From Paracyclopina nana (Eukaryota; Arthropoda; Copepoda; Cyclopoida; Cyclopettidae): 64,000 nucleotides of DNA. The DNA lies in NCBI GenBank assembly GCA_019096065.1, contig JAGUCH010000002.1:16504501-16568500 (forward strand). Reading direction: 5' to 3'. The notes under the pieces were generated by a model. That model did no database searches. It was not told the DNA's origin and worked only from the letters and a program-made list of their open reading frames with translations. Shown in pieces: positions 12,361 through 33,295 of this stretch (the first letter of the stretch is position 1; each line of letters opens with the position of its first letter). The position numbers and the translations under genes are program-made.

Positions 12361-14579
12361 TCTTATCTTCCATATGGAAATTAGTGCATTGTTGACTCGC
12401 GCGTTTTTTCCACGGGTTCAAAAAGTCGCGACGAAAACAAAGGAGACGTTTTCCGTCAAATCGCTGACGTCCCCGTTGGCTTCAATGGAGAGTCAGCTGA
12501 TTTCACGAGTTTTTGCCTCCTCCCGGCTTTCTCAATAAATTCACCTTTGACGCTATGAAGAAGTGCGGCAAAATTATGTCTTCCCTCGAAAAACTTGTTT
12601 CGCCCACTGCGCACCGTCTTCGCCTCTGACACAGAAAGCTTCCCAATTAATTCAACTCAGCGTGCTCAACTCTCGCTCACGTGGCGGGAAATTCAAACAA
12701 CACGGAGCGCTGACAGCTTGACGAAAACAACGGAAAAAAACTCGTTTTTCGCTAATGTGTACACAAAAGGCGACATGAAGTTGACACGAGACAATCATGG
12801 AAATCGAGGAATGTTACGAAGAAGAAAATGTCATCGATGAGGTGTTTTTTCCCTCGTTGCATCGAAACTTGGACAAGGTCGTTTTCACGCAACCTTTCTT
12901 GCCCATTCCTCACTGATTTTCGTAATAGGAGAGGAGCGCTGCATTTATTTTCTGCCTAGCCTTGATTTGCTTAAAAAACTTGTAAATTTGTCACACCGTC
13001 ACGGATTTCATGTGAAATCACATCGGCATGTTTTAGTGCGTCACAATTATTATCAATGGAGGCACTGAAGCAATAATAATAACCTTAGCAATGTCATGGT
13101 GCCTAGAAATGGTTCAGCAATTATGATTAATCAAGAGGATATTGCGAAACATGTGCATACACAAAACAACCTATGCTAAATCACTAATTATCCCAAAACA
13201 AATCATGTCAGGACAATAAAGTCATGTCTAATTCTGAGAATAGTGGACACCTTAGAAGTCTTTAGAAGCAGCTCATATTGACTTGGCAAAGGACCTTCCC
13301 CAAACTATGCACAACACCCAATAATTATCTCAATTAATAATTAATTAATCTCAAAAAATAGTAAACTGTAGGTGCTAGACGTTTTTGAACATTTTATGTT
13401 ATGGGAAGCCATAGGCCAGGATTTTTAAATTACTACCAAATGAACCCTAAGAACATAAGCTTTCAGAAAATGGATATTTTTGGGTGTTGTAAAGAGTTTG
13501 GGTTAGGACCTTCTTCAAGTCCATGTGAGCTGAATAAGTCTTAAGTGCTTTGCTAATCACTACGCAAATTCAGTGGTCCTTTTTTCATTGTCATGGTTGA
13601 CATCTTCCTGGATAAAACATATGCAATGAGAAATCAACTCTTCCGCTGGTTGAGCTACGCATTGCAACACTTTTAAAACCTGATTCCTCGGATTTACTTT
13701 ATGCTGCTTGATTTTGGTTCCACTGCATGACCTCTTTGACCATCCCAATTAGTCTAGCTAGAGAAACTTCAGATTTGGCTGTTGCGTCACCTCGCCATAA
13801 TAGCATATATTTTCTAGATAAATCCGACTCAAAGAGTAGATCATTTTACTTTGTAAGCAAGGACCTTGGTGTTCATAGGTGTTCTGCGTATGTAATTGAT
13901 AAGCGTCGCATTCAACCCTTTTTTTGCCAACATTCTGCTCACGCCGAAATTGTCTCAGTCTCTTTTGCAAATACTTTGGTTATGCTATTGAAGAGTTTCG
14001 CTATCTCCAGATCCAATCTTCGCGGTTGGCCATTTCGGCTCAAAAAAAGCCGCCATCCAGCTATCATTATTACATTTTTGCAACTCCGCTAATGGCAGGC
14101 CTTCGTCGTCATCATCAGTAGAAATCCAGTGCATGACATAATGAAAGTTCAACGAATTTTTTATTATGTGAGCAGTGCAAAACTTTTCAGCTTTGAATCA
14201 TCGACTGCGCAATATTTGACAAAAAGCTGCTGTTTCATTTGAGTACGTGCGATTTCACATCAAATTGCAAGGTCAATTTTTCCAGATGACAATCCTTGCT
14301 TCGGACATGGAGGCTGGTCACACTTTGTGTCAAAGGTCACAACTATTTTCTCCAAGCTAAGAAAATCTGAGCTTTTTTCATGTAAATGCGAAAAATTGCT
14401 TTAAAACTCAACTTTATATGACCTGCTCATCTACTCTACTTTTTCGTAACTTTCTTGACTTACCCTACGAGAAATGTTGTCGTAGCTCCACAAATTTCTA
14501 TAAGATGTCGTAGTTTTTAAGAGCTGGTGTTATGTTATCGATGCCTCTAGGATTGACTAAACTAATGCAACTTTGGAAA
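12361..14579. other. Intergenic DNA left of the giant retroelement
   Basis: AT-rich sequence with no gene I can support. Short minus-strand open frames at 13,560-13,970 with a broken acidic stretch near 14,100 may be a decayed transposon or gene, but no motif identifies it. Confidence 0.5.
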
Positions 14580-15504
14580 TGGTGTGCGACGGTCACACCC
14601 TCTGAAGCCTAGGATGGTTAGCATCGGCTTCATGGTCGCGGTACCGTTCGCAGCCTCCGGGTGCTGGCCGGATGTCTACTCGCCTTGGGCCCAAAGCCGC
14701 AGCCTCAGTGCTCCAACTCTGGCGAGATACATCACATGGCAAGCTTCAGTGCTGTAGACCAGTGATTGGGCCTCCTACCCACGTCCTAAACGGCCTCAAC
14801 AGCCTCAGACTAGGGTGCATAACTGCCCAGGAAACCTCTATACAAGTTATGGTCGAACAAAGTCAAACAAGGTTGTCTTATTCACTCGGCTTTTAACACC
14901 ACACAAATTAATGGCAGCAAATACAAAGAAATAAGTACTGCAGTAAATATTCTTGTGGCCATCTTCTTCATGCCTCAGCACACTTTGGAGAACTTTGGTG
15001 GGACAATAGCAGGGCAGAGCTCACTCAATGGGCCATGTGCACTTGGTCCATGTCTTGTTTCTCTGAAGTCCCCCATCGAACTCCCCGAGTCTTCTCCTTC
15101 TTCTCCACTCGATGCATCGCAGCAAGTTCCATCAGCTTCCATCTGCTTCTCTCCGTTATCATGCAGCTGCAGGTCCTCTCTATGTAGCAGCTAGCAACTC
15201 CTCCACACAATGGCTAGCAACTTCTCCACTCAAGGTCAGGTGAATTGCCATAGGTAAGGCTCAACGCATAGGTAGTAGCAGCAGCAGCAGCAACAATCAG
15301 AGAGTTGGAGGAGATGAAAAGGTGTTTTTAAGAAAGGAGGTTTTGTGATTTTGAGGTGGTGATGTAGCGGTGAATGGGCAACCTTCCGGACTTCTGGCGG
15401 CTCCACGGGCTCCACGGTTTCCACAGGTTCCACTGGAGGGGTCCAATCAAGTCCTATTCTGGTCGTAACGTGCACCAGAGACATGATGTACTTATTGCCC
15501 ATCA
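14580..15504 (-). repeat. 3' LTR of the giant element
   Basis: 925 bp, starts TG and ends CA, apparently identical to 43,648-44,572. It contains a short GCA microsatellite near 15,267. On the minus strand it is preceded by the purine-rich GGGCCGGGGAA (15,505-15,515), a likely polypurine tract. Confidence 0.95.
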
Positions 15505-15608: not shown

Positions 15609-17495
15609 TTATACTAACGTCGCGCCTCCCAGGCCACTCATTCGCACAGTAAGGCGCTGATTTTGGTCAGCATCTTTCTTGCGATCTCCTCTATTGTAGC
15701 GAGGCCGTGAGCGGGACGTATTAGGTCTCACATAGCCTCCATCATCATAACATCGGCTGCATACTCGCCGCCTTTTCCAAATCAATATGCCCATACACGT
15801 GAATCCCAGTGCTGCAGACAATAGGCTCACCGTCAGGATTATTTCCCAATTATTGAATAAACCTCCAAGTTCATCTTCAGGGAATTTTGTAAAGAACTTC
15901 ACCATATCACTTTCCCAAGGAGAGTCCTCGTATCCAGTACTTTGAGTTCCAAGGGAAACCTTACAATTGCTAAGGATCTGATAGGATCCTGGTTCCAATA
16001 CCATCGAGTTCTTGAAGTCATTTAAACAAGTCCTATTAATCATTGCACTTGAGACCAAATTTAAGAACCCTTTATAATTAGCACATCCCACATCAATGAG
16101 CGTGTTAGTTTTAAGTGGCTCTAATTCACAGGCGTCAAAAGGGTCACCCAGAGCTAGCCCTAAAAGTACTTTAGCACAGTGTTGGACTCCTTCTGTCAAG
16201 TCAAAGTCCTTGTTTTCACACACGGTTAAATTATGGTCATGAACGAAGCAATCACTATAGATGGGTATTTCCCGAGACACAAACACTAGATCATTTCGGC
16301 GGGTCAAATACCTATCATGCAGTAAGAACTCCGTTTTGCTTCGTGACACAATATGATATGTGACCTCAGTGGTAGGGTCCATTTCTTTATACCCAACTAT
16401 TCCCTGAGTGACAAAGTCTCCACTCTGCTCAGTGTTCGCCAAAGGTTCATAAACATTAGTAATGGTGGCCGCATTTCTGTCACTATTATGCGCCAGAGTT
16501 GGTATGCTGAACCGTGTGCCTGCCTGTCCAAAATTTCTGGCAAATTGCACAACTGTGTCAGCATATGACAATACTTGCTGCAGATCATTTGGTATTAATC
16601 CAGACTTCAAAAAGACCTTGCTAAAACCTTTCAGTAGTCGAAAGGCCAAAGAAACTTTCGGTGGTACTCTCAGTGGAGTGGTATTTGCTATCATGCCATC
16701 GGTGAATTTTGTCGATTTACCTGATTCTGCTAGGGCCATCACGGCGTTGTAGGCCTTTTCAAGGAAGCTTTTCCTCCCAGACAATTCAGATTTGACAAAG
16801 TCCTTATGGGTGATGACAAAGTCATTTTGGACACATATCGTTGCCTTCCCATCACTGTGTGGTGCATGGGCTTTAACTGACGTCATGGTCCTCGGCCCTT
16901 GTCCCACAGTGAAATACCCCGTGATACACGGGTAACCTGCAATTATCTCATCGTCCGGTTTTTTCTCATACCCCACTTGAGGGAACGTGGTTTTCCCATC
17001 CAAGGACATAGGTACCTCATTGACAATCCGAAACTTTACACATAAGGTTACCTTAGTGGCAAGAGGGCTTTCCTTTGCCGTATAACGTAATAGTTCTAGA
17101 AAAACGTCCATGTCTTCATAAGTTTTAGGGGCAAATGGTACAAACCCTTGACGTTTGGAACAAGCTTTGTCGATGGTGTTAGGGGTACTCTCTTCGCCAA
17201 CTGCCAACATATTCCCAATATGGACCAAGTCCTCCTTGTCCTTAACTTCTTTTACCACGGTGTCAATATTATTCAGGACGCCAATTGTTGATTGCAAAAG
17301 GCCACTGTAATCCTTCGTATCTAACACCATAGCCTTTTTCACCATTCTAGGATGATGGACCACTCTAACTGGAAATAGGGCATGTCCGGAATGGCAAAGT
17401 GCCTCATCCAGTACGAACTGAGTATTTGGGTAGTTGGACAGGCCCCAAGTGCCAGATCCCAAAAGGGTGAGTATGAAGGCCAATTCAAACGACAT
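15609..17495 (-). CDS. Envelope-like type I membrane glycoprotein of the giant element
   Basis: An intact 628-residue ORF in the usual env position just before the 3' LTR. It has an N-terminal signal peptide (about 1-19), a long cysteine-containing ectodomain with Asn-glycosylation sites (NTT, NLT, NRT), one transmembrane helix at about 551-573 (LTVSLLSAALGFTCMGILIW) and a 55-residue basic tail. This layout indicates a virion surface protein or fusogen, but I recognise no fusion peptide, furin site or named env family, so the function is inferred from topology and position. A TATA-like TTATAAGG lies about 58 bp upstream of the ATG on the minus strand, suggesting its own promoter. Unlike pol, it is uninterrupted. 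Confidence 0.65.
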   Translation of the reverse strand: MSFELAFILTLLGSGTWGLSNYPNTQFVLDEALCHSGHALFPVRVVHHPRMVKKAMVLDTKDYSGLLQSTIGVLNNIDTVVKEVKDKEDLVHIGNMLAVGEESTPNTIDKACSKRQGFVPFAPKTYEDMDVFLELLRYTAKESPLATKVTLCVKFRIVNEVPMSLDGKTTFPQVGYEKKPDDEIIAGYPCITGYFTVGQGPRTMTSVKAHAPHSDGKATICVQNDFVITHKDFVKSELSGRKSFLEKAYNAVMALAESGKSTKFTDGMIANTTPLRVPPKVSLAFRLLKGFSKVFLKSGLIPNDLQQVLSYADTVVQFARNFGQAGTRFSIPTLAHNSDRNAATITNVYEPLANTEQSGDFVTQGIVGYKEMDPTTEVTYHIVSRSKTEFLLHDRYLTRRNDLVFVSREIPIYSDCFVHDHNLTVCENKDFDLTEGVQHCAKVLLGLALGDPFDACELEPLKTNTLIDVGCANYKGFLNLVSSAMINRTCLNDFKNSMVLEPGSYQILSNCKVSLGTQSTGYEDSPWESDMVKFFTKFPEDELGGLFNNWEIILTVSLLSAALGFTCMGILIWKRRRVCSRCYDDGGYVRPNTSRSRPRYNRGDRKKDADQNQRLTVRMSGLGGATLV

Positions 17496-17548
17496 CTTAC
17501 CAGCACAAACTCTGATCAGAAACTATTTGGGCCCCAAGACCGCTAACT

Positions 17549-17558
17549 TTCCTTATAA
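17549..17558 (-). promoter_or_regulatory. TATA-like box upstream of the envelope-like gene
   Basis: Minus-strand TTATAAGGAA lies about 55-60 bp before the ATG at 17,495. The same ten bases occur, in the opposite sense, at 19,199-19,208 before the plus-strand accessory gene I. Confidence 0.4.
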
Positions 17559-17733
17559 ACCCAGACAAGTATGGGCACGCCACCTCACTATGTCTAGACA
17601 TTCTTTGCTTTTTTCCATTGGTTTTTTATTATCATAGCATGTCGACATGTATGGTAAAAAGTTAAGAGTATTGGCCCACAACCAAGTATTTTATCAATAT
17701 GTACAATTCGATTCTGAAGGGTAATTTCATTTT

Positions 17734-19110
17734 TTAGAACTGCCCGACAAATCCATTAATCGCCTCAGTGAATACCTTGATGTCGCTGGGGGTCATTTCC
17801 TCCATTTTAGCCTGGAGGAGATAGTTCACACGCTCCTTATTCTTATCGACTTTGGAGCGCTTAGCGTGCAAAATGTCTGGTCCATTCGTTCCTGCGCCAA
17901 AAGGGCGCCCGCGCGCTACATCGGCGTACAGTCTAGGTCCTCGCCTTGGTTTTTGTTGCCAAGACTTCTCCACAAACGCAGCTAGTTTTTGGGGCCTGGC
18001 CCCGGCTGTGTACCTCACGCATTGCGGATATGTCCCAATGGCTCGATCGACAAACTGGGCTACCATGGTAGGCAGGAGTGCGGTCATATCGATCTTCACG
18101 TCCAATTTTCGTGGTGCTTGAGCCACGCCATTGTTAAGGCAGGACGGCGGTCCCACATACAGTTGCAAGTAAGGCGACGTCAAATCATGGAACATCCGCG
18201 GATCCCAAAATGTTGAGTCCAATGTTGGCATGATCTGAATGCAGCCTCGCTTGGTATAATGTTTTGAGACTACCACAGGGAGTTGGGCTCCACCCTGTCC
18301 ACGGATTCCATGAACATAATACCCAACAGCTGTTGGGCTCTGGACGGCAGACCAACTCCTGACATTGGCCAACTTATGGACATTCTCGTCATATTCCATC
18401 TTGTCAGGCAAGTTGTAGACTGGTAGATTGTCTAGCATCGGAAATATAACAAGAAAATCGGGAATCTCCCCTCCTTTACTCACTGGCTCGATAATCAATT
18501 CAATGCAGTCAAAGTTTTTCACCTTCAATGGCCTACGAGGCTCGGTCCGTTCATAGGGTTCTCCATTTATCCTAATCGTTAGGTCAAAAGGCACCTCCTT
18601 TCCAACAGTCATGACCTCTTTCGTAGCTATCTTCAACAGGCTTGCATCATAGTGCTGCTGTATAGTAGCTCTGGTCCGGCTCGCCTCCCTCGCATAGGCC
18701 TGTAGACCCTCCATGTGGGGAGGCCTGATCAAATCCTCAAATGGCAATGGGTACCCCAAACTGGAGGATACCCTTTCCAATGGGACCTCGAGGGGTTCCT
18801 CTTGGTCCTGGTGCCTAGTCGTCTGATTCTGGGCTTGATTCTCAATATTGACAGCAGGCATGTTGCGATCCATAACTGGCTCATCATCCTTTAGGAGCTC
18901 ACTAACCTCATGCTCGTTGAACTCTCCAGTCTTATCAGTCTCCATCATGGAGACCAATGCAGATTCTCCTTCCATGGATTCGGTGATCAGAGACATCCTT
19001 AGGTTATCGAGGCTATTCAAGCTATCGCTCATTTCCAGACTGTTGCTGTAGGGCCGTAAACTGCCCTTTTTATACGCATCCTTACAGGTATGCCCCACAC
19101 TCTCGGGCAT
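17734..19110 (-). CDS. Unknown 458-aa protein of the giant element
   Basis: An intact ORF between the envelope-like gene and a divergent intergenic region. No signal peptide or membrane segment. Residues 1-110 are acidic and Ser/Glu-rich. About 150-360 looks globular with many aromatic and Cys residues. The C-terminal 100 residues are basic (KPRRGPRLYADVARGRPFG, then KRSKVDKNKERV). It has no motif I can assign. A matrix-like, nucleic-acid-binding or regulatory protein would fit the basic tail and env neighbourhood, but that is a guess. The start at 19,110 is the first ATG of the frame. Confidence 0.65.
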   Translation of the reverse strand: MPESVGHTCKDAYKKGSLRPYSNSLEMSDSLNSLDNLRMSLITESMEGESALVSMMETDKTGEFNEHEVSELLKDDEPVMDRNMPAVNIENQAQNQTTRHQDQEEPLEVPLERVSSSLGYPLPFEDLIRPPHMEGLQAYAREASRTRATIQQHYDASLLKIATKEVMTVGKEVPFDLTIRINGEPYERTEPRRPLKVKNFDCIELIIEPVSKGGEIPDFLVIFPMLDNLPVYNLPDKMEYDENVHKLANVRSWSAVQSPTAVGYYVHGIRGQGGAQLPVVVSKHYTKRGCIQIMPTLDSTFWDPRMFHDLTSPYLQLYVGPPSCLNNGVAQAPRKLDVKIDMTALLPTMVAQFVDRAIGTYPQCVRYTAGARPQKLAAFVEKSWQQKPRRGPRLYADVARGRPFGAGTNGPDILHAKRSKVDKNKERVNYLLQAKMEEMTPSDIKVFTEAINGFVGQF

Positions 19111-19398
19111 TTAAATGCGTGGGTTGTCCCTTTTTAAAAAAACCCAAGGTCATTTTTTGTCTAGGTAAAAAAGAACAAGGTAACAGGACTTATACCACTT
19201 CCTTATAAGATGGGCGCGTGCGCGCACGCTCATCGTTAAGTTGCACGGACATTTTTGACTTCCTAGATCGAGAAACGTAGCGAGGGTGCAGCAGGCAGTT
19301 GCAACTCTCAGCTTTCACTTAATGTTGATCATTCTCCCATCGGACTTCGTCCAAGCTGGTCACTTTTCTAGAGATATTCCAATCCCAATCAACTCGCG
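19111..19398. promoter_or_regulatory. Divergent intergenic promoter region
   Basis: 288 bp separate the minus-strand 458-aa gene from the plus-strand accessory gene I. The region contains TTCCTTATAAG (19,199-19,209, TATA-like for the plus gene), a GCGCGTGCGCGCACGC palindromic run after it, and TTTTTAAAAAAA (19,131-19,142), possibly serving the minus gene. Promoter activity is inferred. Confidence 0.4.
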
Positions 19399-20448
19399 AT
19401 GGTCATTTTAGCCTGGGTTTCTCTAACTCCAGAGGGCAGCTCTACAGAGGCTCCCACTGAGGTTCCAATCCAGCCATCAACGGTGGATCCTGCGCTAGTG
19501 GATTCTCAAACCACGGGCCCAGTAGGTCCTACTGTTGCTATTCCTGAGAGTGGCATTTCTGAAGCTGAGGGTGGACCTGGGTTTGACCCAGCTCCTGTTG
19601 ATCCCTTTGAGGTGGAGGTGTTTGACCCCCGAGATTTAATGCCAGCGGTACCAAATGGTTATCGTCCCGTTGCCCCTCAGAGGGGCTGGATCGATGAGGT
19701 TTTCAATTATCACCGATACGGTGTAATGGGGTGGATCGGTCTTGGAGCCTCCATTGGGATGGCTTTGGTAAGTTCAACTTTATGGCTAGTTTTGCAACTA
19801 TGGCCAAATTTTATTTACCACCTCTTCCTTACAGATTTTGCTTGGCATGTTGGTGTACTTCTGCGTGTGGACATCACGGTGGTGCCGTAGGTTCGTGGCC
19901 ACGTTTCGAGCTATTCGTACGGAGTCAGCGGCTGCCAGTGGAGCCATGCAAATGCTTCCAACAAAGGCCCCATCTGAGCATGCAGCGGTATTTCACTGCT
20001 GTACACCAGAGGTCCGAGCTTTGCCAACAGCCCCGATTATGCGTGACCCTGATGTCCATTCGCTCCAAATGGCAATGGCTGCCATGGACCCCTATGGAAC
20101 ACTACGCCGGAATCCCAGCATCATGTCCGGGCTGGCCCACATCTATGACGTCCCTAATCCCAAGGGCTGGGTAAGGACCTATCAATTTATGAACTGTAAA
20201 CAGGTTACTCATGTACTCTTTTTCGTGCACCGTTTCAGGTACCTGTTACTGAAGGGTGTGGACCGCGGACTTTGAAGAGACGATCTCGCCGGGCTCGAGC
20301 CCGAGATAACCGTCGCTTGGATTCGGCAGCGGAGTCCATTCCGGACAAGGACGAGATCACTGAGGCTGAACCTCTCTCAATCGCAGATGAGGACCAGGAT
20401 TCCGCCGAGTCAAAGGCTTCCCAGGACGTGAACAGCGATGCCAACTAA
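19399..20448 (+). CDS. Antisense accessory gene I: spliced single-pass membrane protein
   Basis: Three exons, 19,399-19,767, 19,835-20,170 and 20,239-20,448, with two short introns (67 and 68 bp), all phase 0 with GTAAG donors and pyrimidine-rich acceptors, give 304 residues. The N-terminal 105 residues are Pro/Glu/Thr-rich. A hydrophobic segment at about 112-134 (GASIGMALILLGMLVYFCVW) is built across the first splice junction and followed by a basic stretch (RWCRRFVATFRAIR). The tail ends in an Arg-rich cluster (KRRSRRARARDNRR) and an acidic Ser-rich end. It is transcribed opposite to gag-pol-env and followed by AATAAA at 20,776. No homologue recognised. A membrane-bound accessory protein is inferred. 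Confidence 0.65.
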
Positions 20449-20775
20449 GGATCGCCACAGACTTATTGCAAGACGAAGAACGCTTTCTTTTCGCACGTAT
20501 TTAAGCGCGTTTTCTGTAACTTTTCGCACTTTGTACTTTCATCGCGTTGCAACTTTCTCACTTTATAACTTGCACTTTTCCGCAGTCTTCGTAGACTTTT
20601 CCACTTTTTCAAGAACTAGCAGACTTTTCGAGGCCTCGTAGACTTTTCGAGGCCTTGAAGACTTTTTTAAAGCCGGCTTTTGCACTTGCACTCGTCTTGT
20701 TTTTATTTTGATCTGATCTCAAAGCTTCCAATATACTCGAGTATATACTATAGTACTTGTATTCTATATATATGT

Positions 20776-20781
20776 AATAAA
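20776..20781 (+). terminator. Poly(A) signal AATAAA after accessory gene I
   Basis: Canonical AATAAA about 330 bp past the stop of gene I and before gene II. It supports gene I as a separate plus-strand transcription unit. Confidence 0.5.
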
Positions 20782-20956
20782 GAATTCGAATTCAAGTGGA
20801 GTAGTAGGTATTAGCAAAGCCGTTACCTTCATCTGACAGCGCTCCCAGACTTTACGTAGATGCACGTAATAAAAAGAGGCTTTTTTACACGAAATTTGGC
20901 CGATTTCAGACCGGATTTTTCTGGTAGCGCGCCTTGTTTACTAAAAAGTCCAAAAC

Positions 20957-21495
20957 ATGGCGGGCTTCCTACACGGCTTGTTCGTAAGTTTTTATTTCGA
21001 TTAAAATCCGGTGAATCCTTTCGTTAAACTGTATCTTTTTCATTGGGAATGCAGAATCCTTCTACTACAACGGTGGCGCCAGCCACCGAGGCTCCCGTAG
21101 GGGCGCCCCCCGCGGCCGAGTCCGCGGCGGGGTGGCCCCAGCCACCTGCGGCCCCGCCCGCAGCCCCTTTGGGCCATCAGGAGGCGTGCCCTCCCTGCCC
21201 CGTTCAGGGCTTCGTAAGTGCATTATTCGTTATCTATTTGGTCAAAGCTCGACTTTTTCTCGTATTACAGGCCGAAGAGATCCTCTAGGGCGTGGCCCTG
21301 AACGTGGCAGGGGCAGCCACGTATTACGTGGTGGTGCTCCCCGCCCTCGTCTGGGTCCACCGGACGAAGCCGAGAGGCCTCTACCGGCTTGTCAGCCGCG
21401 TGTGGGCGGAGCCCGAGGACCTCCCCCGCATCAGTGCGTGGGTCCTCCGCCTTTTGGGCGTGGCGGAGGCGGACCCCCTCGAAGGAGTCGTCTAG
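20957..21495 (+). CDS. Antisense accessory gene II: GC-rich, spliced small membrane protein
   Basis: Exon 1 is 20,957-20,983 (9 codons, GTAAGT donor), exon 2 is 21,055-21,213, exon 3 starts at 21,271 or 21,289. With the first acceptor the frame stops at a TAG (21,286-21,288) after 66 residues. That TAG is itself the AG of a second acceptor (CCTCTAG), and its use removes the stop and gives 130 residues with a membrane segment (AGAATYYVVVLPALVWV) and a basic tail. Intron 2 is 57 bp, in frame and stop-free, so retention would add a hydrophobic stretch. A third intron (21,495-21,556) overlaps the final stop: unspliced gives TAG, spliced gives TAA. The layout of Pro/Ala-rich N-terminus, helix and basic tail resembles gene I. 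A second, Arg/Gly-rich frame is also open through exons 2-4. AATAAA is at 21,658. Confidence 0.55.
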
Positions 21496-21657
21496 TAAGT
21501 CTAACTTAATCACTTAAGCCATCACGGCTTCACTATATTCATCTTGTCTTTTGCAGAACTCGTCGTGTTCCCGGTAGGCCACCGCACCGGCCAGGGCTGG
21601 CCCCAACGTGGCCCAAGGCCAGCCCTCCCCCCTCGCCAGGAGGCCTCCCATTGGGAC

Positions 21658-21663
21658 AATAAA
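21658..21663 (+). terminator. Poly(A) signal AATAAA after accessory gene II
   Basis: AATAAA lies at the 3' edge of the GC-rich island, followed by TG/T-rich sequence as expected downstream of a cleavage site. Confidence 0.5.
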
Positions 21664-21944
21664 GTCCACGTTCATTGTACTTTTGTGTCTACTGTGTTTA
21701 CCGCAACTCATTTCGCGTTTACCTCAGCAGATAGCTCAGCCTTATGAAGCTCAGCACCTTTCTAGTCAAGTTCAGCAGTTCATTATCATAGCCAAGCACA
21801 TTTCGAGTCCAATTTTTTACATTTCATGGCCAAAAGGACCGTAGACCATATCTCAGGTGTCAAGAATTGCATTTTAATTGCATAATTAATCATTAGCGAA
21901 TCATTAGCGGCCCAAATCCACAGATTCGGGCCTGTAAATAAGCT

Positions 21945-23060
21945 AGCATTCCAGCTCGACCTTGACGGCCTTGACACTGCAAACGATGCTTCAATGTTCA
22001 AGAAAAGCGTTTACTATAGCCCTGCATTCCAGCTCGGGCTTGATGCAGCACCATATTTGAGTGTCTGCGATTACTACCGGCCAAGCGTTGGTGCTTATGG
22101 GCTACCAATGCCAATTTGGCATCCTTTTTTCCTTGGGCATTCCGCTCGGCCTTGAGTGCGGCGAAGGAAACGTAGTCCCTACAGGACTGGAAAACCGGCC
22201 GTATCTATGTCATTGCACATAGCAAAAGCAAGCTCAAGCACTACGCCATGGCCCCATAATCTTTTCCATATCAGGCTAGAAGACGTGGTATTTTTCATTT
22301 TCTCACATGTCAGTCTACAATGTGTGCTGACCTAGCTTGTTTTGCTAGTGCTGTGTTTAGCGTAAATTGAATTCTCCACCAAAAAGAGGGGATTCATGTG
22401 GCAACTGCAAGATAGCCACATTTCAGCACTTCTTTTATTTAACAATATGCCTAATCTTTGTGCACTTTGAACCTTTTCTTCTGTTAGTCCATCTGGCGAT
22501 CATTAGCGGTATCATTATAACATTAGTCATTTTCATTCTCTTGACTTTTATGCAACGTTTTATTTTATTCCTTGTACCCGCCTAATAAATCCCGGAATTT
22601 GGGTCACCACTCGAGTCAAGTATGGCCATTTTTGAGTTTAGATAAGTTCAAAAACCTTCCCAGGTGAATTGTAGGTGCACCGGCGGTTCCACTCTTCATT
22701 GTTTGTTTTAGCCTTGGGCAAAACGTTTTTAGTTCGTGGTTAGGCGCATGGTGGCGCCACCATTCTACATCTCCAAGCGAAGCCGCTCAAACTGGATTTT
22801 TCTAGTGTGGGAGCGTCTCTGGATTTTTGTTCCATAACAACTTTTTGCCCCCCTTGGAGTCGGGTATCTGTTCGACAAAAGCTGGCTCAGCGTCTTTGCG
22901 CAATGCAACTCACATTTCAGTCTATCTTGCTCAAATGTTTTTTGTCTAGCCATTTTGAACAGACTCATAGATTATGTTTTATCTGTTATCACTGACTTGC
23001 ATAGCTATTATAGCATTATAGCTCTGCATTCCAGCTCGGTCTTGATGCGTGCATCAAGTT
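21945..23060 (+). repeat. Dispersed 20-bp motif GCATTCCAGCTCGRYCTTGA
   Basis: Near-identical copies begin at about 21,948, 22,024 and 23,028, with a degenerate one near 22,138 (GCATTCCGCTCGGCCTTGAG). The stretch 21,760-23,320 otherwise has no gene I can support. The motif may be a binding site or a trace of local duplication. Confidence 0.55.
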
Positions 23061-23322
23061 CGGGTGCTCATAACCGAAATTAATTTAGAAGATTGAGGTT
23101 GTCAGCACCGATCTTTTCAGCTAATTTCGGTTAGCACTAATAATAATATATGAAGCAGATTTTGCGACATTTATGTGCTAGTGTTCAGGTTTATAGTTTT
23201 GTGTAGTCGTTTGCCATATCCAGTTTTTTCTAGAAATTTTGTTTACAATACTTTCTCAGAGCACGAGGGCGCTCAAATTTTGTGAAATTTTTGGGGCGCA
23301 GGCTGCATTTCCTGCGGCTACG

Positions 23323-23393
23323 TATATATACTCACCCCTCCACAATTTTCTGCATTTTGTGGGAACTGCAGTGAGCAGTCACACAAAATTCAG
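23323..23393 (+). promoter_or_regulatory. TATA box and short 5' exon, internal plus-strand promoter
   Basis: TATATATA at 23,323-23,330 is followed after about 60 bp by CAG/GTAAGTATG, a perfect splice donor at 23,393/23,394. This is the expected layout of a promoter with a short noncoding first exon. The downstream partner exon is not identified. A 173-codon plus-strand open frame at 24,475-24,996 is the nearest candidate but looks non-coding. Confidence 0.4.
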
Positions 23394-23504
23394 GTAAGTA
23401 TGTTTTCGAATCTTTTACTATAAAAGATCTTATCGGCTAGGCTAATTTTATTCAATGTTATTTAAACGATGGCGCCCGTGGGCACCATCCATGATATCAA
23501 TAAC

Positions 23505-25000
23505 CTAAATCGTGCCATAGTAAGAAGAGAAACGCGGCACATATTGAACTTTATTTTCATTTAGAATTACAATTTCGTTTGTCACACATAGACTGTTGGG
23601 CAAATGAAATGTAAAATGGTATTTTATGGGGAAACACTTGTTCACCTCCAAGATACCCCAGTTGTATCCAAAGCTGATGAGTTCACCAGCATATAGGTTT
23701 TTTGTTGTCTTTAGTAGCCACAAAGGAGCGGCCCATTCCAATAGAGAGTGGGTCCCTACATTTTGTTGAGGCATGAAGACCATAGTTTGGGCTGATTATT
23801 CGCCCAGGCACAAAGCTGTACTTAGTATTTCAAGATCCCTTCTTAGGGAGATGAATCCCATTTTTGTACAGATTTCCATGTTCCATCCTACTCAAAGTCC
23901 GGAGGCGTCACGCCTAGACCTGCGTTATGCAACCAGGTCATGGTCGAGACACTCTGATATTATAGGCACAGTAGTCGTTGCAACAGAGTTTTTGTTTTAT
24001 GGCATATACTACTGTGGTATCGTTTCCATGCCAGAACATGTGTGATTTATAATCGTCCTTTTTTATCGATGCCCAATCCTCATTTCAGAGGTTGTGCATT
24101 TTTTAATTTCTTCTGGAAGTTTTCAATATCGTTCCAAGATTTTATATAGTAATGCGGCCAACACAAGCCCTCATGCGTATTGTGAGGTTTATTGTGTCCC
24201 ACTTGCACAGTGCCTAGTGCCAACTTTTGCTGTACTAAGGTACGAATGTCCCAGTAGCTATCAACCCACGCGAGGCATGGAGTGGATAGCGGTTCCATTT
24301 GGACATAGCTCAGTGGAGCTTTAACCATAGTTTTCAACACATAACTATTCAGATGGGGCATTACGCCCATCTGCAACTTCCCTCTTGCATGGCGTGTTTA
24401 TAGTACTTTACTTTATATAACTTATATAATAGTTAACTTTATTCAGGCCAATCGGCCTATCGTCTATTGTAAGCTTGGCCTCCTACTATAGTAGTAAGGG
24501 GCAAGCACACGTAAGTACCGGTCAAATTTTGATTTGCATCGGTATTTATCAGGAAACAGGACAAAATTATTTGTCCCATCAATATTGTAAAAATAACCTA
24601 CGCAAACTTCATTTTTTTTGTCAAAGCAAGCGAGGTTTGGTTTGTTGTTGGATTGAACAATCCCTGGAGGAAGTCCAAATCCAGTGCCTTGTGGCTTCCA
24701 TCATTTTTATACATACTTCTAGAACCGCTAACGAACTGCAGAGAGTATGTTTCGTTAGTTGTTTTCTTGCTGTCAATGTACTGTTCAGCAACTTATCACC
24801 TTTATGCATATTGTACCTTACTGGCGGGCATGTGAAGAGACATTGCCCGTTCGTGTCCATTTCTATGATCTTTTTGGCAAGTGGCCAAATTCAGGTCCGC
24901 AATCGACATTTTGCATTAACTTACTTTTGGGTGCGCTTGATTGGTAAAACGGTGCGCCCATATTGGACTGACAAAGTAAAGGTAGTGACCCCATAAAATA
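23505..25000 (-). pseudogene. Possible decayed minus-strand gene of the giant element
   Basis: Three minus-strand open stretches (24,860-24,621, 24,376-24,080, 23,783-23,505) in different frames hold Cys- and Trp-containing peptides (for example GQCLFTCPPVRYNM) that look protein-like rather than random. They follow the 506-aa ORF in transcription order. They could be remains of an extra gene or spliced exons. Identity is unknown. Confidence 0.3.
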
Positions 25001-25043: not shown

Positions 25044-26564
25044 CTATTTAAACTTCTTAAAAGCTAGCTTGTATAGTTCATCATAGGTGAGACGCAGCCG
25101 CTTCATTTCATTTATGTTGCTATCATCTTGGTGATCCATGCCAGTCGCTTTAAGAAACTGAATATAATCAGGGACTGCAGCCATGTTTTTATTCAGTTTC
25201 CAATTAGGAATTACCTCTTCTAGTAACTCTCTCTCTTTTTGGTCAGGCCTTTCTTTCGTATTTGTAAACCTAACACGGGCGAATTCCTTGTCCTCCCGAT
25301 CTAAAGGAGCTATTCGTGGAATATTAGGAAAGTATTTTTGTTCTTTACCAGTTTTGCTTTTCTCTTTCTCATACTTTCTTATGCCCGCTAACTTCCTGTA
25401 ATCTACAGTTCCCTTTCTCTCCCGCAGTTGTCGTCTGGGAAGGATCCGTATTGGAGTGGGCTCACTAATCTCGGGTTCAACTGTTGGTTGGACAGCGGCC
25501 GAGGCTTCTGGTTCCTTTGGTTCGGCAAATGGTGTGGCTGCCGAGCTACTCGGCTGGTCAGAGGACACCAAAAGGTTCGTGTCAAGGAGCTGTTGAACAT
25601 TCTGTGAAGGACTTGTATCCTGTTCAGTTGTCAATGCTGCTTCGGAACGAGTCAATGCTTCAGTGGGATCAGGCTGAGCAATCGCAGGAAGACCCGCAGG
25701 TACGTTCTTTTTATTATACTTTTGAAACCCTGCCAGGGAGCGATAATTAACGTTTTTTCTTCTTCTTAGGTTATGAGGAAGAAAACTTAATGGAGACAAC
25801 TTTTCTGGTTCATACGGAGCCCGTACAACAGCCTCAGGTGGCTTCTGAGTACCCGGTTGTGGAACTACTGGGCCAGTTTGCCTGACAGTGGGGTGTGCAA
25901 CCCCAGGAGTAGCTTGGTGAGCAATGTGCTCCTTTTCAGTCATAGCCAGGTCACCCAAAGGTGTAACCTTTGCCGAAAAGTGCTCAAGTACGTTTGTGCT
26001 TGGCACAGTTTGTGGTACTCCCGCATTTGGTAACTCACTATTTCTTGGTTGCAAATCAGGTTTTCTGACCGGACTTTTCATTATAGTATACCGAACTTGA
26101 GGCTCCCCTCCTTCAGCTCCATAAATCTCCGGTTTCGGGGCACTGGGCCCTTCCATAGGATTATCGATTGGTGGAGAGGGAGGCCGTTTACGTGGTGAGA
26201 GTTCTAACTGGCGTCGTACAATATCGATTGCTTTTTGAACATTCTGTTTAATGCTTTTTGTCAGCGGTGTACGCCGCAGATTTTTACGAGCAGTATAATA
26301 AATTGTAGTTGTGTCATCACTATCACTACTTTCATGTTCATCGTCGTGTGTATTTCCGCCGAATGGATCAGTAGGCAGTGCTAATTGCATACTTTCCAGG
26401 CCAGCAGATAAAGATTCTAGGTCAGTGTCAAATTTGGAAGGTGCGATGAAAGATGCTGCTTTTTCAACAATCTCCTCTATATTATCATTGTCCTTATTAG
26501 GAGTTGCAGACATACTTTGGTCAGGAGTGTGATATTTCTCCGGACTTTCAGGTATATCTGGCAC
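25044..26564 (-). CDS. Basic, proline-rich protein downstream of integrase with duplicated motif
   Basis: 506-residue ORF. Residues 1-90 are acidic. About 100-270 is Pro-rich and low complexity (ELSPRKRPPSPPI near 121). A basic 21-23-residue motif occurs twice, at about 266-286 (LRRRKNVNYRSLAGFQKY) and 380-402 (LRERKGTVDYRKLAGIRKY). The C-terminus is charged and helical. The frame is open for some codons above the first ATG, and the 178-aa ORF just upstream ends in a different frame, so both may have been one product after integrase. No family recognised. A chromatin- or nucleic-acid-binding role is suggested by the basic repeats only. Confidence 0.55.
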   Translation of the reverse strand: MPDIPESPEKYHTPDQSMSATPNKDNDNIEEIVEKAASFIAPSKFDTDLESLSAGLESMQLALPTDPFGGNTHDDEHESSDSDDTTTIYYTARKNLRRTPLTKSIKQNVQKAIDIVRRQLELSPRKRPPSPPIDNPMEGPSAPKPEIYGAEGGEPQVRYTIMKSPVRKPDLQPRNSELPNAGVPQTVPSTNVLEHFSAKVTPLGDLAMTEKEHIAHQATPGVAHPTVRQTGPVVPQPGTQKPPEAVVRAPYEPEKLSPLSFLPHNLRRRKNVNYRSLAGFQKYNKKNVPAGLPAIAQPDPTEALTRSEAALTTEQDTSPSQNVQQLLDTNLLVSSDQPSSSAATPFAEPKEPEASAAVQPTVEPEISEPTPIRILPRRQLRERKGTVDYRKLAGIRKYEKEKSKTGKEQKYFPNIPRIAPLDREDKEFARVRFTNTKERPDQKERELLEEVIPNWKLNKNMAAVPDYIQFLKATGMDHQDDSNINEMKRLRLTYDELYKLAFKKFK

Positions 26565-26599
26565 ACGTTGATCACGGTATTGGCCACGAAAGGCCCACT

Positions 26600-27136
26600 T
26601 TACAGGGCTGACCCTGCAAGTGTCCCTTCACTGACGTTCGAGCGATCAGGAGTACTAATATGGTCAGGTTTGACACTTGCAAATTCGTATAATCTTTCTT
26701 GTTGGGCCATTTCAGCAAAAGTAGGAGGGCCACGTTGGCTCAAGGCCAGCATGTCCTCATAAAATGCTTCATTGGGCCCTGTATTTGCACTTAGTGCAAT
26801 TGCTTGTTCAATAAATTCATCAGTGCCAGTGTCAGACAAAGAATCACTTGCTTCTTTGTGGAGAATATTATTACCAGCATTGTCAGCTAGGTATTTTTCT
26901 TCTAACTTCTTACGGTCATATTGTTCCCACTGCTTTTGCACGAGTTGTTTATTTTCCTCCTGTATTCGCAAAATATCTGAGGGCTTAAACAAGCTCGCTG
27001 CCTTTTGCATGAGGATAGAACCAGAGCGCTTATAGGTTTGGTGAATCGCACTTGGCTCTGTGTCCATTGATGTGGACTGTGAAATCAATGAACTTTGCGA
27101 GGCCACTATACTAGAGGCCTTTGTATGACCCCGCAA
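26600..27136 (-). CDS. Hypothetical 178-aa ORF between integrase and the 506-aa ORF
   Basis: The ORF overlaps the end of the integrase C-terminal ORF (27,106-27,492) by 31 bp in another frame and ends just before the 506-aa ORF. It contains a helical, charged segment (RIQEENKQLVQKQWEQYDRK) and an acidic Ser/Thr-rich C-terminal half. No membrane segment or known motif. Probably the start of the post-integrase region, separated from its continuation by a frame change. Confidence 0.45.
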   Translation of the reverse strand: MRGHTKASSIVASQSSLISQSTSMDTEPSAIHQTYKRSGSILMQKAASLFKPSDILRIQEENKQLVQKQWEQYDRKKLEEKYLADNAGNNILHKEASDSLSDTGTDEFIEQAIALSANTGPNEAFYEDMLALSQRGPPTFAEMAQQERLYEFASVKPDHISTPDRSNVSEGTLAGSAL

Positions 27137-28883
27137 ACTATAATCATGACTTTCAGGGTTGCCCCTTCAAGAAATTCGATAACCTCATTCCTTGCTTGTT
27201 TACGTAGAATTTCTTCCGGAGTGTAAGGTCGCTTCAAGAGGTTGGACAACTTGTCCAGAAGAAATCTATATAGTTCATGGAATCGATATAACTTGACATG
27301 ATCTAAGCTTACTTCACGAGTAAGCCCATCATAAAGGTATGGCTTTACAGTCACAGTCGAATGCTGTCCAATGTCAATAACTTCAAACAAATCATCCATA
27401 AATTTATACCGTTGTTTATTTATGGGATGTTTTATAACTAACACTAATGATCCAATCTCTGGTTTAAAGGAAGGTCTTTCAGTAGCCTTCATTTTTCTAA
27501 GTGGAACTGTTCTTCTAGATCATATTCACGCATGCGTTGACGCCATTCGGCTTTATGAATTTTGTCCTCGCTTTCACTAAGTATTTCAAATACATCCCGT
27601 CCTAAATGATAGAACGGCATTTTATCGAAAAATAACGAAAAGGTGTGGGGGTGATCTTCACCCCTTTATCATCAGTATATGCCAAATAAGTAAGAGGGCG
27701 ATTATTTATTGCGTAAATAGAAGTCTTAAACACATCGCATAACCTCATATTGTATGAGTTAGAGTTTAGGACTAATGCACTCCTTATTATTCGTATAGCA
27801 TTTTCAGCGTAAGCGTTCAATGCTTGTATGGCGATAAAGTTCGGTAATGACATAACTCCTTAATTTTATAACGATCAACAAGGCGTTGGAGGGCCTTATT
27901 AGTCGTTAGCTGGGCACCATTATCTGCAAGTAATGTTTTTGGCACCCCAAACAAAGAAATTACTTCTTCCATAGCATTCGCTTACCTGCTTATATTTAGC
28001 ATCCAATAGTGGTTTAGCAATTATCATCTTAGAATAAACATCGACAAATACTAACAGGTCTTTTGCGGAAGACCCTTTGACTAAAGTGTCATCGAACTTG
28101 GCCAAATCAATCATTACCAATTCCCATGGCTGAGTCGGGATGCGGAAACGCCCTTCCCAACAAACCTAGTATTAGCTTGGCGGTATAAAGCACAATGCAT
28201 GCACGCACCAATAATAATACGACTGATTCTGGCTGAGTAAGTTGAATACATAGATTGGGTAAAAGAGTATTAGTCTTTTTACTTCCCAAATGGTTATGTA
28301 GCAAATGAATACATGCCATCAGGTACACACAGTTGGGCATACTCATATATACTTTCGTATTGGTCGCAACGCTAAAAGGTAACTTTACATTCTTGCGAAT
28401 GACCAACAGGGCACCGTCAAGGACACGATATTTTACCGCAACATCTAGTGGTACTTTCTCTGGAGGCGAAAGCATAATTAGATTTATTATCTTTTGTGTT
28501 TCTTCACAATTTTGTTGCAACTTAATGAGTAGGTTGCGTGTAATTCCTGGTAAATGTGGCGATATTCGCTTCCGCTTAACAGTGACTGTATCTACTCTTA
28601 AGTTATTTTCTATATGATTCACTGGCGAATCAAAAATCAGCTTCACCATGAAATGAATGGGATAATTTAGAAAGTATCTCGTCCTCAAGAATTTCATCAT
28701 CATCATGTTTTGCTTGAAGTAAGGTTGACGTGTCGTCGGCACAAATGGCGGCTTCGTGCCGATCATGTCAACCCATTTGTCATTTAGGCAATGCAACCTT
28801 TTCTGGAGTAGAGTCTTACTCATAGTTCCAGAATTCACAAGTGTATCATACACATGTGTAAGTAATTCCTGTGTCGTTAGCAC
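27106..28883 (-). pseudogene. pol: Integrase of the giant element, frame-broken
   Basis: The integrase reads in pieces on the minus strand: 28,883-28,107 (RNase H-integrase linker and the His pair of the zinc-binding domain in IHLLHNHLGSKKT), 28,120-27,920 (first catalytic Asp in MVMIDLAKF, then VFVDVYSKM), the second Asp in LADNGAQL near 27,925, 27,853-27,602 (catalytic Glu region NAYAENAIR) and 27,492-27,106 (C-terminal SH3-like part, EIGSLVLVIKHP). Adjacent pieces lie in different frames, so the copy cannot make integrase as sequenced. All three acidic residues are visible. Confidence 0.8.
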
Positions 28884-29090
28884 CTTATCTTTGATTGCAT
28901 CGGGCAGAGGGTATTTATTTGCATAAATATCCTTCGTAATCTGCCCCGCAATAGAGTAGGGCGCATAAAATACAGTTTCACCTTCTGGCGTTTGATGGTA
29001 CTTATTTAATAATACATCAACTACTTCTACCTTCTGTGCGAGGTACAGCTCTCAATTTCCATGCTACAGGCAGGGAATAAATACGAGCTG

Positions 29091-29660
29091 CTAGTCTATG
29101 AGTGAAAGCATCTTTACCAGTAACGAACTAGCCAGCACGCTGGCTATTGATAGACAATCCGTAACTATGACTAGTCGCTCATAGGCGAATAGTATGCTTT
29201 TAAAATGGTTTATCATTGTTAAAACTCCTAATGCTTCACGCTGAAACGAGTGGTACGAGAGGCAAACTGATAAAGGAAAGCGTGCGCTGTGTGCACCAAC
29301 ACACACAGCTTTACCATCCTCATTCACCTCCATTAATAAAGCTGAGGTGCTAATTACCCCAGAATCAACCACTAAATAACCTTCTTTAAAACGTGGCAAT
29401 GCCAGTGACATACCTGTTTTAATCTCGTCTATTACTTTATAGAAACATTTTTCTTGGAAAGCAGTGAAGGTGAACTTTCCTGTTTTCCCTTGTGCTGTTT
29501 GTAATACATCTAGCAGTGGAGCTGTGTATGTAGCCATATTAGGACAGTACTGGCTTAACCAGTTTGTCATTCCAATAAACTTTTGCAGCTGTTTCTTGGT
29601 TGTGGGAATAGGGAAATCATCAAATGCAGACCTGAATTTATCGGGCATTCGCATAGTCAT
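29091..29660 (-). pseudogene. pol: RT connection and RNase H of the giant element
   Basis: 189 codons in one frame. The first part matches the Ty3/gypsy RT-RNase H connection (TTKKQLQKFIGMTNWLSQYC), followed by RNase H features: LVVDSGV in place of the usual DAS start, HSFQREALGVLTMINHF with the conserved Glu, and VIVTDCLSIASVL with the third Asp. RNase H would remove the RNA strand during reverse transcription. Frame breaks separate it from the RT palm above and integrase below. Confidence 0.8.
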
Positions 29661-29716
29661 AATCCCATTTTCGTCAATAGATATTAGGTGCCCTAAGACT
29701 GTAGCTTCTTTAACAC

Positions 29717-30553
29717 CTAATTGTGTCTTTTAATTTGTAATAGGGCATTTAAGTCCTTGAGGCTTTGAAACAACTTCCTCAGATCACCTAAATGTCGTAT
29801 GTAATCATCCAATGTAGCAGGCCTAGGCTTGCCAGGGTTCTTACAGGCCACAACCAAATCGTCTACATATACACATGTAAAGGGCAATATCTCAGGGTTA
29901 AGGGCCTGTTGGAGGAGCTCTGCGAACATTCTCGGAGCAATGGCGATCCCTTGTAGGCATGACTTACTTTTCAGAAAGACTGATCTATATATACTGCGAG
30001 GGGACGTTACTGCAAAGCAGCACATATCAGCACTATCAGAGTCCACAGGTAAGTTATCGTATCCGGATGTTACATCGAAAGATGACATTAAACACGAATT
30101 AGATAACATCCCTAGCAAGGTAGGGATAGGTGGCACTATGTGCTCCGGTCAGTAAATATCAGATTTTTATTAAAAGATGTTAAGTCAACTAGTAGCCGAG
30201 GCTTGCGTTGCTTCATAGGCAGCTTTTCATCATTTGGCCTTGAAGTCAAGAAACAAGGGCAAGCCGAGTACCTATTAAGTGACTTATCCACAATTTCAAT
30301 TAATCCAGATGACAGCATTAATGCTATTTTACGGTCAACCTGCGTAGTTTCATACTCCGACATGTTAAATACTTTTGGCACTAATGGTTTATCATCCTTT
30401 AACTGGAACTTCATGGGTTCGACATTCCATAGCCTATATGATCTAGGGTCCTCCGAGAATATAGTCTTATATTCTATTAAGAGATCCCTAAATTCTTCTC
30501 TGACCTCATCCGGAATGTGTTCTAGATCCATGTTCAGGATCGTTTCTGGTTTC
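29717..30553 (-). pseudogene. pol: Reverse transcriptase of the giant element, frame-broken and cut by the nested insertion
   Basis: Two minus-strand ORFs. 30,553-30,136 covers RT fingers (KPRLLVDLTSFNKNL). 30,136-29,717 covers the palm, with SSFDVTSGYDNLPVD (first Asp), LQGIAIAPRMFAELLQQAL and the catalytic box CVYVDDLVVACKN. They meet in different frames near 30,140. The upstream coding sequence lies beyond the nested element, at 37,347-38,349. The spacing fits Ty3/gypsy or retroviral RT, with many substitutions at usually conserved sites. Confidence 0.85.
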
Positions 30554-30838
30554 TGTTGTATCACGTTGAAGCATACTTCCCTATATTGACTCTCACGTGT
30601 AACCTACATAGCTAGATACTCCCCTCTCGCGCGTGCATGCATTCATTCTTTCTGTCTCGCTTAAGCTTGCACTGAATTACACTCAGTACACATCTCGTAT
30701 CAAAGTGGATACGTTCGCCTCGATCTGGTAAATCTCGCGTAGTAGTGCTCACGGTTTCCTGGTACAAGACCAGGGATCCAACCGACGTAGCTCGAGTAGT
30801 AGTGCCTTAAGTGTCACCCACGAGGTCGGGACCAACCA
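30554..30838 (+). repeat. 5' LTR of the nested element
   Basis: 285 bp, TG...CA ends. Nearly identical to 37,061-37,346. Confidence 0.96.
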
Positions 30839-30855
30839 TGGCGTCAGTTCTCAGT
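30839..30855 (+). other. Primer binding site of the nested element
   Basis: TGGCGTCAGTTCTCAG starts at the first base after the LTR, as expected for pairing with a tRNA 3' end (TGG pairs with CCA). The tRNA was not identified. Confidence 0.7.
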
Positions 30856-30895
30856 CTCTTTGCATAAGAGGCCCTTTCCTAGAAGAGGGAAGGTT

Positions 30896-31041
30896 TGAGA
30901 AGCAGCCGAAGAAGGTTTGTGAGTGGAAAATTTCCGCCACCCTTGGCAGCATCACGACAACAAAGTGTGAGAGGCAGCCGGAGAAGGTTTCGTGAGTGGA
31001 ATTGTGAAAGTTCCGCCACCCTTGGCAGCATCACAACAAAA
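30896..31041 (+). repeat. Tandem 70-bp duplication in the gag leader
   Basis: Two copies of about 70 bp, each with GAAGGTTT(C)GTGAGTGGA and CCACCCTTGGCAGCATCAC, lie between PBS and gag. Each copy holds a GTGAGT that could act as a splice donor for the downstream accessory ORFs. Confidence 0.65.
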
Positions 31042-31060
31042 AGTGTCAACAAAAGTGTCC

Positions 31061-32587: not shown

Positions 32588-32833
32588 GTTTTGATTTTTC
32601 TAGCACGTTGGAGTGTAAAACGCTATTGCTTGCAATGAGGCAATACGCATTATGAAAAATCAAAAGATAGATACTCTCCGCCGTTCATTTTTCAGAGTCG
32701 CATCAAGAGGATGGAGGAAGATGACGGAGGGGCAGGGGTTATCAAGATGGCGAAGACCAAGAGCAGAAAAAGAAGGAGATGCAGCAGAAGATCTCCAAGG
32801 CAGTGAGCGGGCTGCGGCCCTCATGCCTACCCA

Positions 32834-33037: not shown

Positions 33038-33295
33038 AGACGAGCAGAACATGTGAGATTGCAATATCACGTGGCATGAAAGTGGTTGTAGTAACCAATG
33101 CAGTGGTCGCTTCACTTGGTGACGATGAAGAGGTGATTGTCGACTGGCAGACACTGGAGATATTAGGCGTGGTTGGCCTAAACATTAACTCCACGGCAAT
33201 CGCAGCAACCACAATGGATATGACTCTGGAGAGCTTGAAGCTCAAATATACAGAGGTCTTTGCAGACAAGCTTGACAAAACCAGGTTTATGAAGG

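Follow-up and report, generated by a model that had tools for sequence, protein, structure and literature searches.

Conserved intron-containing antisense genes for predicted membrane proteins in a Ty3-like retroelement of the copepod Paracyclopina nana

Several retroviruses carry genes on the strand opposite to gag-pol-env. HBZ of human T-cell leukemia virus 1 (HTLV-1) and APH of HTLV-2, HTLV-3 and HTLV-4 are spliced antisense genes made from the provirus, and ASP of human immunodeficiency virus 1 (HIV-1) is an antisense transmembrane protein (PMC10186651; papers are cited here and below from parts of their text). Antisense open reading frames (ORFs) between pol and the 3′ long terminal repeat (LTR), conserved in most copies, are also found in the plant elements Retand, Grande and RIRE2 (PMC7264820, PMC11963269). 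Here we describe a 64,000-nucleotide stretch of the P. nana genome (the window; assembly GCA_019096065.1, contig JAGUCH010000002.1, positions 16,504,501 to 16,568,500), in which a large Ty3-like, env-bearing LTR element carries two tandem genes, I and II, antisense to its own genes. Both genes lie between the LTRs, are under purifying selection and have kept introns among copies and across divergent lineages. We consider it likely that they are real accessory genes of the element, read opposite to its packaged RNA and acting as membrane proteins made from proviral DNA.

Genes I and II resemble HBZ and APH in being antisense to gag-pol-env, and their conserved intron structure predicts spliced forms such as those known for HBZ and APH. 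However, transcription of HBZ and APH starts in the 3′ LTR, the HBZ product is a nuclear protein of the bZIP class, and the consulted part of that review describes no tandem, multi-exon pair of membrane-protein genes with internal promoters (PMC10186651). The genes in the copepod element do not fit the nuclear bZIP type: they have a transmembrane pattern, and a Pfam scan of exons I.1, I.2 and II.3 gave no match, including none to the TRP28 domain PF04195 (exons I.3 and II.2 were not scanned alone). In addition, TATA-like boxes inside the element suggest that transcription of the two genes would start away from the 3′ LTR. ASP shares the antisense orientation and a transmembrane product but has two transmembrane domains with both termini inside, and no intron structure is described for it in the same part of the review (PMC10186651). 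The plant ORFs occupy a position similar to that of genes I and II, and gene 23 of Grande has its own promoter; GENE23, however, is nuclear, unlike the membrane products predicted here, and the Retand clusters mostly carry a TRP28 domain that probably binds DNA. The word intron is absent from the main texts of both papers, and the parts consulted assign no membrane proteins to the antisense ORFs (PMC7264820, PMC11963269).

Among invertebrate elements, the sORF2/FAST-like candidates of the MDG1 group come close in predicted product, being small, single-pass, N-outside/C-inside proteins with a juxtamembrane basic patch from arthropod LTR elements, but they measure 63–107 residues and are all sense, their expression being attributed to the main start site (PMC11952523, a preprint, seen in part). 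Since ORFs of consensus sequences were translated in that work, its screen probably misses spliced genes. The Burro elements of planarians are likewise giant invertebrate Ty3-like LTR elements with env homology, but their env is located between gag and pol and in frame with them, and the word antisense is absent from the paper (PMC6431247). Nor do antisense spliced genes appear in the parts seen of papers on ostracods, bdelloids and Drosophila endogenous retroviruses (PMC7998251, PMC5408684, PMC12992720). Among the papers that our literature search listed, none showed a tandem pair of internal, multi-exon antisense genes for membrane proteins; subscription journals lay mostly outside that search, so this is not proof of absence. 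The initial annotation had supposed that spliced, tandem, membrane-protein genes of this kind would be new. That claim has to be narrowed, because both properties are already on record, though separately: HBZ and APH are encoded in antisense and spliced, and ASP is a transmembrane protein encoded in antisense (PMC10186651).

Genes I and II have a similar layout (Table 1). The splice junctions proposed in the initial annotation are all present (19767/19835, 20170/20239, 20983/21055 and 21213/21271 or 21289), and each gene has its own AATAAA signal, as had been proposed; the last intron of gene II was missing from that list. The plus strand of the 19.2–21.7 kb region contains four GTAAGT hexamers, all exactly at exon ends (19768, 20984, 21214 and 21495), and the minus strand of the same region contains none. 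Because the last intron splits the stop codon, translation of gene II would end with or without splicing of this intron.

Conservation was assessed in 40 copies, that is, the window and 39 other listed places; 40 of 56 candidates were scored, so that the copy number is a lower bound. The GT/AG dinucleotides are kept in all 40 copies at all four introns tested (for gene II intron 2, with the distal acceptor), and the frames are open in 35 copies for gene I and 36 for gene II. Variable sites fall mainly at third codon positions, with counts at positions 1, 2 and 3 of 32/40/86 in gene I (p = 1e-7) and 24/20/60 in gene II (p = 8e-7). The ratio of nonsynonymous to synonymous polymorphism (pN/pS) is 0.193 for gene I (35 copies; 95% codon bootstrap 0.130–0.289) and 0.212 for gene II (36 copies; 0.132–0.320), compared with 1.46–2.12 in four of the five alternative frames. 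The exception is the reverse frame whose wobble positions coincide with those of the genes, which gave 0.25 and 0.36 and contains 8 and 5 stops. Among cases of changed length, the frame was kept in 35 of 43 in exons, while 0 of 63 in introns were multiples of three; these cases are copies and not independent events, and five introns were counted, with one boundary of the last intron misplaced by a single base. The widely shared exon length changes (15 and 16 copies) are in frame, and each out-of-frame class occurs in one or two copies.

For comparison, two sense ORFs of the element, ORF458 and an env-like ORF, have pN/pS values of 0.12 and 0.50 (21 copies, broken ones included) and are open in 10 and 12 of these copies, respectively. 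In the neighboring 21.9–25 kb, 35 ORFs of at least 45 codons gave values of 0.24–1.48, with one undefined (11 copies). The codon-position bias and the low pN/pS relative to other frames and ORFs therefore indicate that both antisense genes are constrained like the real genes of the element, and these substitution patterns show that purifying selection acted on genes I and II during the spread of the element. Coding conservation across copies had been named beforehand as one check on the initial annotation, whose central claim, of two conserved antisense intron-containing accessory genes in one LTR element, is supported by the copy comparison, the selection and the introns kept in divergent lineages. 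The 21.9–25 kb region yielded no convincing frame for a third antisense gene (10 copies and the window). These ~3 kb (21900–25000) lack a convincing gene on either strand and differ in length between copies; some minus-strand fragments at 24.1–24.9 kb have pN/pS near 0.5.

More distant relatives were recognized within the same genome. With fragment rows left out, 57 loci matched gene I exon 2, one of them at E = 0.048, and 79 matched gene II exon 3. In all 57 gene I loci, gene II lies 1135–1457 bp downstream on the same strand, while 22 gene II loci have no paired match to gene I exon 2. Four of the more distant loci, L088 to L091, were examined. The homolog of ORF458 is 46% identical in locus L088 and 24% identical in L089 (E = 1.5e-11), and both genes are opposite to it in L088, L089 and L090. 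Splice sites of the relatives were placed by eye on the plan of the window. So placed, gene I intron 1 is in phase 0 within the transmembrane segment in the window, L088 and L089, and the plan of gene II (a very short exon 1, an exon rich in Pro/Ala/Thr, tandem acceptors, a transmembrane exon and a stop-splitting donor) recurs in 5/5 sequences, the window included. In the protein collection, gene I exon 2, ORF458 and the env-like ORF (best 8000 candidates scored) had no match at E 0.001; ORF458 had none in IMG/VR, and the env-like ORF had no meaningful match in the Protein Data Bank (PDB; best E 1.9). An SgrT match on the ORF at 19731–20174 was below the cut-off and was dismissed as chance.

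Both acceptors of gene II intron 2 are in frame, and use of the nearer one would add AEEIL and a stop. The 18 nt between them contain no variable site in 40 copies (0/18), compared with 10/57 in the remainder of the intron, and in L088 and L090 they differ from the window by one synonymous base. The nearer acceptor is lost in 1 of the 40 copies. The acceptors of the relatives are also 18 nt apart and enclose AEEIL or VKEIL followed by a stop, except in L089, where 12 nt encode GFD-stop. The invariant 18 nt, which would arise with a probability of ~3% at the rate of the intron, fit an alternative exon end in use and provide modest evidence for one.

Hydropathy analysis predicted a transmembrane segment in each of the two products, preceded by about 108 residues in gene I and about 60 in gene II. 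N-terminal to the segment the net charge is −2 to 0, and C-terminal to it +4 to +5, in 7/7 sequences chosen, a set that left out L090 and gene I of L091; because of this charge difference, the products were placed with the N terminus outside. Thus, both products look like N-out/C-in proteins that span the membrane once, with a basic patch following the spanning segment. Gene I of L088 has five cysteines after the segment. The window proteins start MVILAW and MAGFLH and lack an N-terminal MGxxxS/T.

The element that carries these genes is a single minus-strand insertion spanning 14576–44576 of the window, ~23 kb without the element nested in it. Its two 925-bp LTRs are identical (0/925 differences). 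The LTR pair, the short target-site duplication (TSD) and the Ty3-type reverse transcriptase (RT) and RNase H identify it, from its sequence, as Ty3/gypsy-like (Metaviridae). The pol region matches Pfam RVT_1 (1e-10), RT_RNaseH (2e-5, just above the cut-off) and RT_RNaseH_2 (7e-6, below its cut-off) and has weak PDB sequence matches to 'Enzymatic polyprotein' (0.006), 'Reverse transcriptase/ribonuclease H' (0.0075) and Ty3-G Gag-Pol (0.035). At the expected place in 11 other copies probed, the 3′ LTR was whole in 8, present as a 144-bp part in 1 (L059) and absent from 2 (L058 and L066). The labels gag-like and env-like were assigned from position and sequence reading, without a family match; by eye, the env-like ORF has a signal-like hydrophobic N terminus and a C-terminal hydrophobic segment followed by basic residues. 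ORF458 is named for its 458 residues counted from the first ATG (19110).

Table 1. Coordinates of the antisense genes and of the element that carries them (window positions)
Feature	Positions	Strand	Remarks
Gene I	19399–20448	+	Between pol and ORF458, antisense to element; 304 residues
TATA-like box before gene I	19203–19209	+	By eye; 39/40 copies listed
Gene I exon 1	19399–19767	+	123 codons; Pro/Thr/Ser/Glu-rich, then first half of transmembrane segment
Gene I intron 1	19768–19834	+	Phase 0; interrupts transmembrane segment
Gene I exon 2	19835–20170	+	112 codons; second half of transmembrane segment, basic patch; pN/pS 0.11
Gene I intron 2	20171–20238	+	Phase 0
Gene I exon 3 and stop	20239–20448	+	Tail basic, then acidic
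Gene I AATAAA	20776–20781	+	Present in 39/40 copies
Gene II	20957–21663	+	Antisense to element, downstream of gene I
Gene II exon 1	20957–20983	+	9 codons
Gene II intron 1	20984–21054	+	Kept across copies and relatives
Gene II exon 2	21055–21213	+	53 codons, Pro/Ala/Thr-rich
Gene II intron 2 to proximal acceptor	21214–21270	+	
18 nt between tandem acceptors	21271–21288	+	Would encode AEEIL-stop
Gene II exon 3	21289–21494	+	Transmembrane segment, basic patch; pN/pS 0.26
Gene II intron 3	21495–21556	+	Divides stop codon: TAG unspliced, TAA spliced
Gene II last exon	from 21557	+	
Gene II AATAAA	21658–21663	+	
5′ LTR	43648–44572	−	925 bp; TSD GAAA at 44573–44576
gag-like ORF (sense)	39836–42400	−	854 residues, uninterrupted; CCHC-like C terminus, by eye
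489-residue ORF (sense)	38367–39836	−	Uninterrupted; weak aspartic protease match, below cut-offs
pol region (RT, RNase H; sense)	29091–30603	−	Several frames in window copy
TATA-like box before ORF458	19067–19074	−	By eye; 40/40 copies
ORF458 (sense)	17734–19032	−	432 residues from ATG below TATA-like box; single exon
env-like ORF (sense)	15609–17495	−	628 residues, uninterrupted
3′ LTR	14580–15504	−	925 bp; TSD GAAA at 14576–14579
LTRs of nested element	30554–30838 and 37061–37346	opposite to large element	99.65% identical; TSD GTTTC

Other features of the element and its surroundings are as follows. By eye, hydrophobic stretches precede the protease-like sequence in the ORF at 38367–39836, which suggests that its product would be a membrane-anchored protease. 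The pol region at 25044–30603 consists of many short overlapping frames despite the identical LTRs, with decay, assembly indels and spread in trans all possible explanations; there are additional sense ORFs at 25.0–27.5 kb. Between ORF458 and the env-like ORF (17495–17733), an AATAAA follows the former and a TATA-like box, read by eye, precedes the latter; these sense 3′ genes may be separate transcription units. The nested Ty3-type LTR element (30554–37346) is 6.8 kb long, runs in the opposite orientation and has RT, RNase H and integrase matches. Outside the large element, the window contains a tandem satellite array (1525–2739), two adjacent ORFs at 4926–6744, the first of which matches the Exuperantia RNase H-like domain (E = 7e-11), and a cluster of repeats, some inverted and some direct, most of them 100–550 bp long (50138–60609). 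TTAGG, the arthropod telomere repeat, was present at 3 of 9 contig ends read, in keeping with an arthropod host, and the nematode repeat TTAGGC (4 units) was absent; the contig ends of L048, L051 and L054 have GGCCT/CCAGG-type repeats in place of TTAGG.

Retroelements normally lose introns once their RNA is spliced and copied back, and vectors that carry intron-bearing genes in antisense keep the introns by the same principle that we propose here. RNA polymerase II would transcribe each gene from the DNA copy of the element, integrated or nuclear, and gene I would share a promoter region with ORF458, which is read in the other direction; the TATA-like boxes before gene I and ORF458 are possible halves of such a divergent promoter region. 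The transcripts would be spliced, each ending at its own AATAAA. The packaged RNA, on the other hand, would hold the introns as reverse complements that the spliceosome does not cut, which would be why they persist. The initial annotation had given this reason for their survival, and it fits the contrast between the intron-bearing antisense genes and the gag-like, 489-residue, ORF458 and env-like sense ORFs, all of which lack introns (pol, being in pieces, allows no comparison). The membrane products would take effect once the element has integrated, either within the producing cell, on the surface of that cell or on particles under assembly, and the tandem acceptors could yield a membrane form of gene II as well as a short form lacking the membrane segment.

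Several observations weigh against this account. The topology was deduced solely from hydropathy and charge, no signal peptide is evident in either product, and gene II of L089 has a possible second hydrophobic stretch. The relatives are also uneven: gene I of L089 lacks the second intron, exon 1 of gene I in L088 was recognized only in its 3′ part, L090 is decayed with its gene II exons out of frame, and L091 provided only the 3′ half of gene I and no ORF458 match in the fetched stretch. The database searches with gene I exon 2, ORF458 and the env-like ORF brought up no relatives from outside this genome. When lengths are counted by distinct classes, the frame is kept in 6/13 in exons and 0/9 in introns, and 3 of the 35 chance ORFs next door reach pN/pS of 0.24–0.33, with at most 4 synonymous differences per pair. 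Divergence in the antisense genes is 3.2% and 3.7% in introns but 8.9% and 18.8% at synonymous sites, which is not expected of neutral introns; this suggests either additional constraint on the introns or a mosaic history in which exon alleles are the older, most evident in gene II exon 3 (pS 0.25). Finally, the TATA-like boxes are readings by eye without a chance test.

Three rival explanations are considered very unlikely. An artefact of overlapping elements or chance ORFs might be suspected in a window that contains a nested element and many chance ORFs, but the arrangement recurs in 57 loci and several lineages within an element bounded by an LTR and TSD pair, and copy conservation, selection and co-occurrence refute it, leaving it practically no probability. 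Regulatory antisense transcripts have been considered in both retroviruses and plant elements (PMC10186651, PMC7264820, in the parts consulted), and the useful product could in principle be an antisense RNA that acts on the sense transcript by pairing or repression, with the ORFs incidental. The codon-position bias, the shared in-frame length changes and a pN/pS near 0.2 indicate protein coding and refute a pure RNA role, which we regard as highly improbable, whereas an added RNA role is compatible with them. It is also very unlikely, if a little less so, that genes I and II are captured host genes carried along without use to the element. Read-through could pick up intron-bearing genes in antisense; however, purifying selection on both genes, their co-occurrence in 57/57 loci and their persistence in a lineage whose neighboring ORF is only 24% identical speak against passive carriage, as does the lack of a Pfam match in the three exons scanned. 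The coding constraint thus argues against the uselessness of captured genes.

On these predictions, the reading we favor is that genes I and II have an accessory role at the producing cell's membrane, with two leading candidates for what that role might be. The products may be partners of Env or membrane components of the virion, in the manner of ASP, modulating the 628-residue env-like protein or host surface proteins in re-infection exclusion or release. ASP of HIV-1 overlaps env; the antisense genes here lie near the env-like ORF, and gene I is always accompanied by gene II (57/57), but no sequence relatives were found for gene I exon 2 in the protein collection, and we hold this role to be possible while doubting it. 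An unlikely alternative is that one or both proteins resemble the FAST proteins of reoviruses and the sORF2 protein of MDG1-group elements in Drosophila and join neighboring cell membranes, passing particles from producing cells to the germline. The transmembrane segment, N-out/C-in charge and juxtamembrane basic patch of the sequences chosen, as well as the cysteines of L088, agree with this, and sORF2/FAST-like proteins of such architecture are reported in arthropod Metaviridae (PMC11952523, in part). On the other side, the ectodomains are longer than the roughly 30 residues of FAST proteins, the 304 residues of the gene I product exceed their 80–200 range, the MGxxxS/T start is missing (although not all members of the family have it), the element has an env-like ORF of its own, and the reported sORF2-like genes are all sense (PMC11952523). 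Joining these elements, we put forward only tentatively, and with rather more doubt than confidence, a spliced antisense two-gene module that would be expressed only from nuclear DNA through the host spliceosome, in which the tandem acceptor would decide whether gene II gives a membrane form or a short soluble one and the products would serve as FAST-like spreading or exclusion factors at the proviral stage.

For genes I and II, the comparisons indicate that an animal retroelement has kept spliced genes by placing them on the opposite strand, as two tandem genes where the retroviral literature, in the parts cited here, describes single ones. They would be a naturally occurring and testable example of genes expressed only at the DNA stage of such an element. 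They also imply that spliced antisense genes can escape screens that look for ORFs in transposon consensus sequences.

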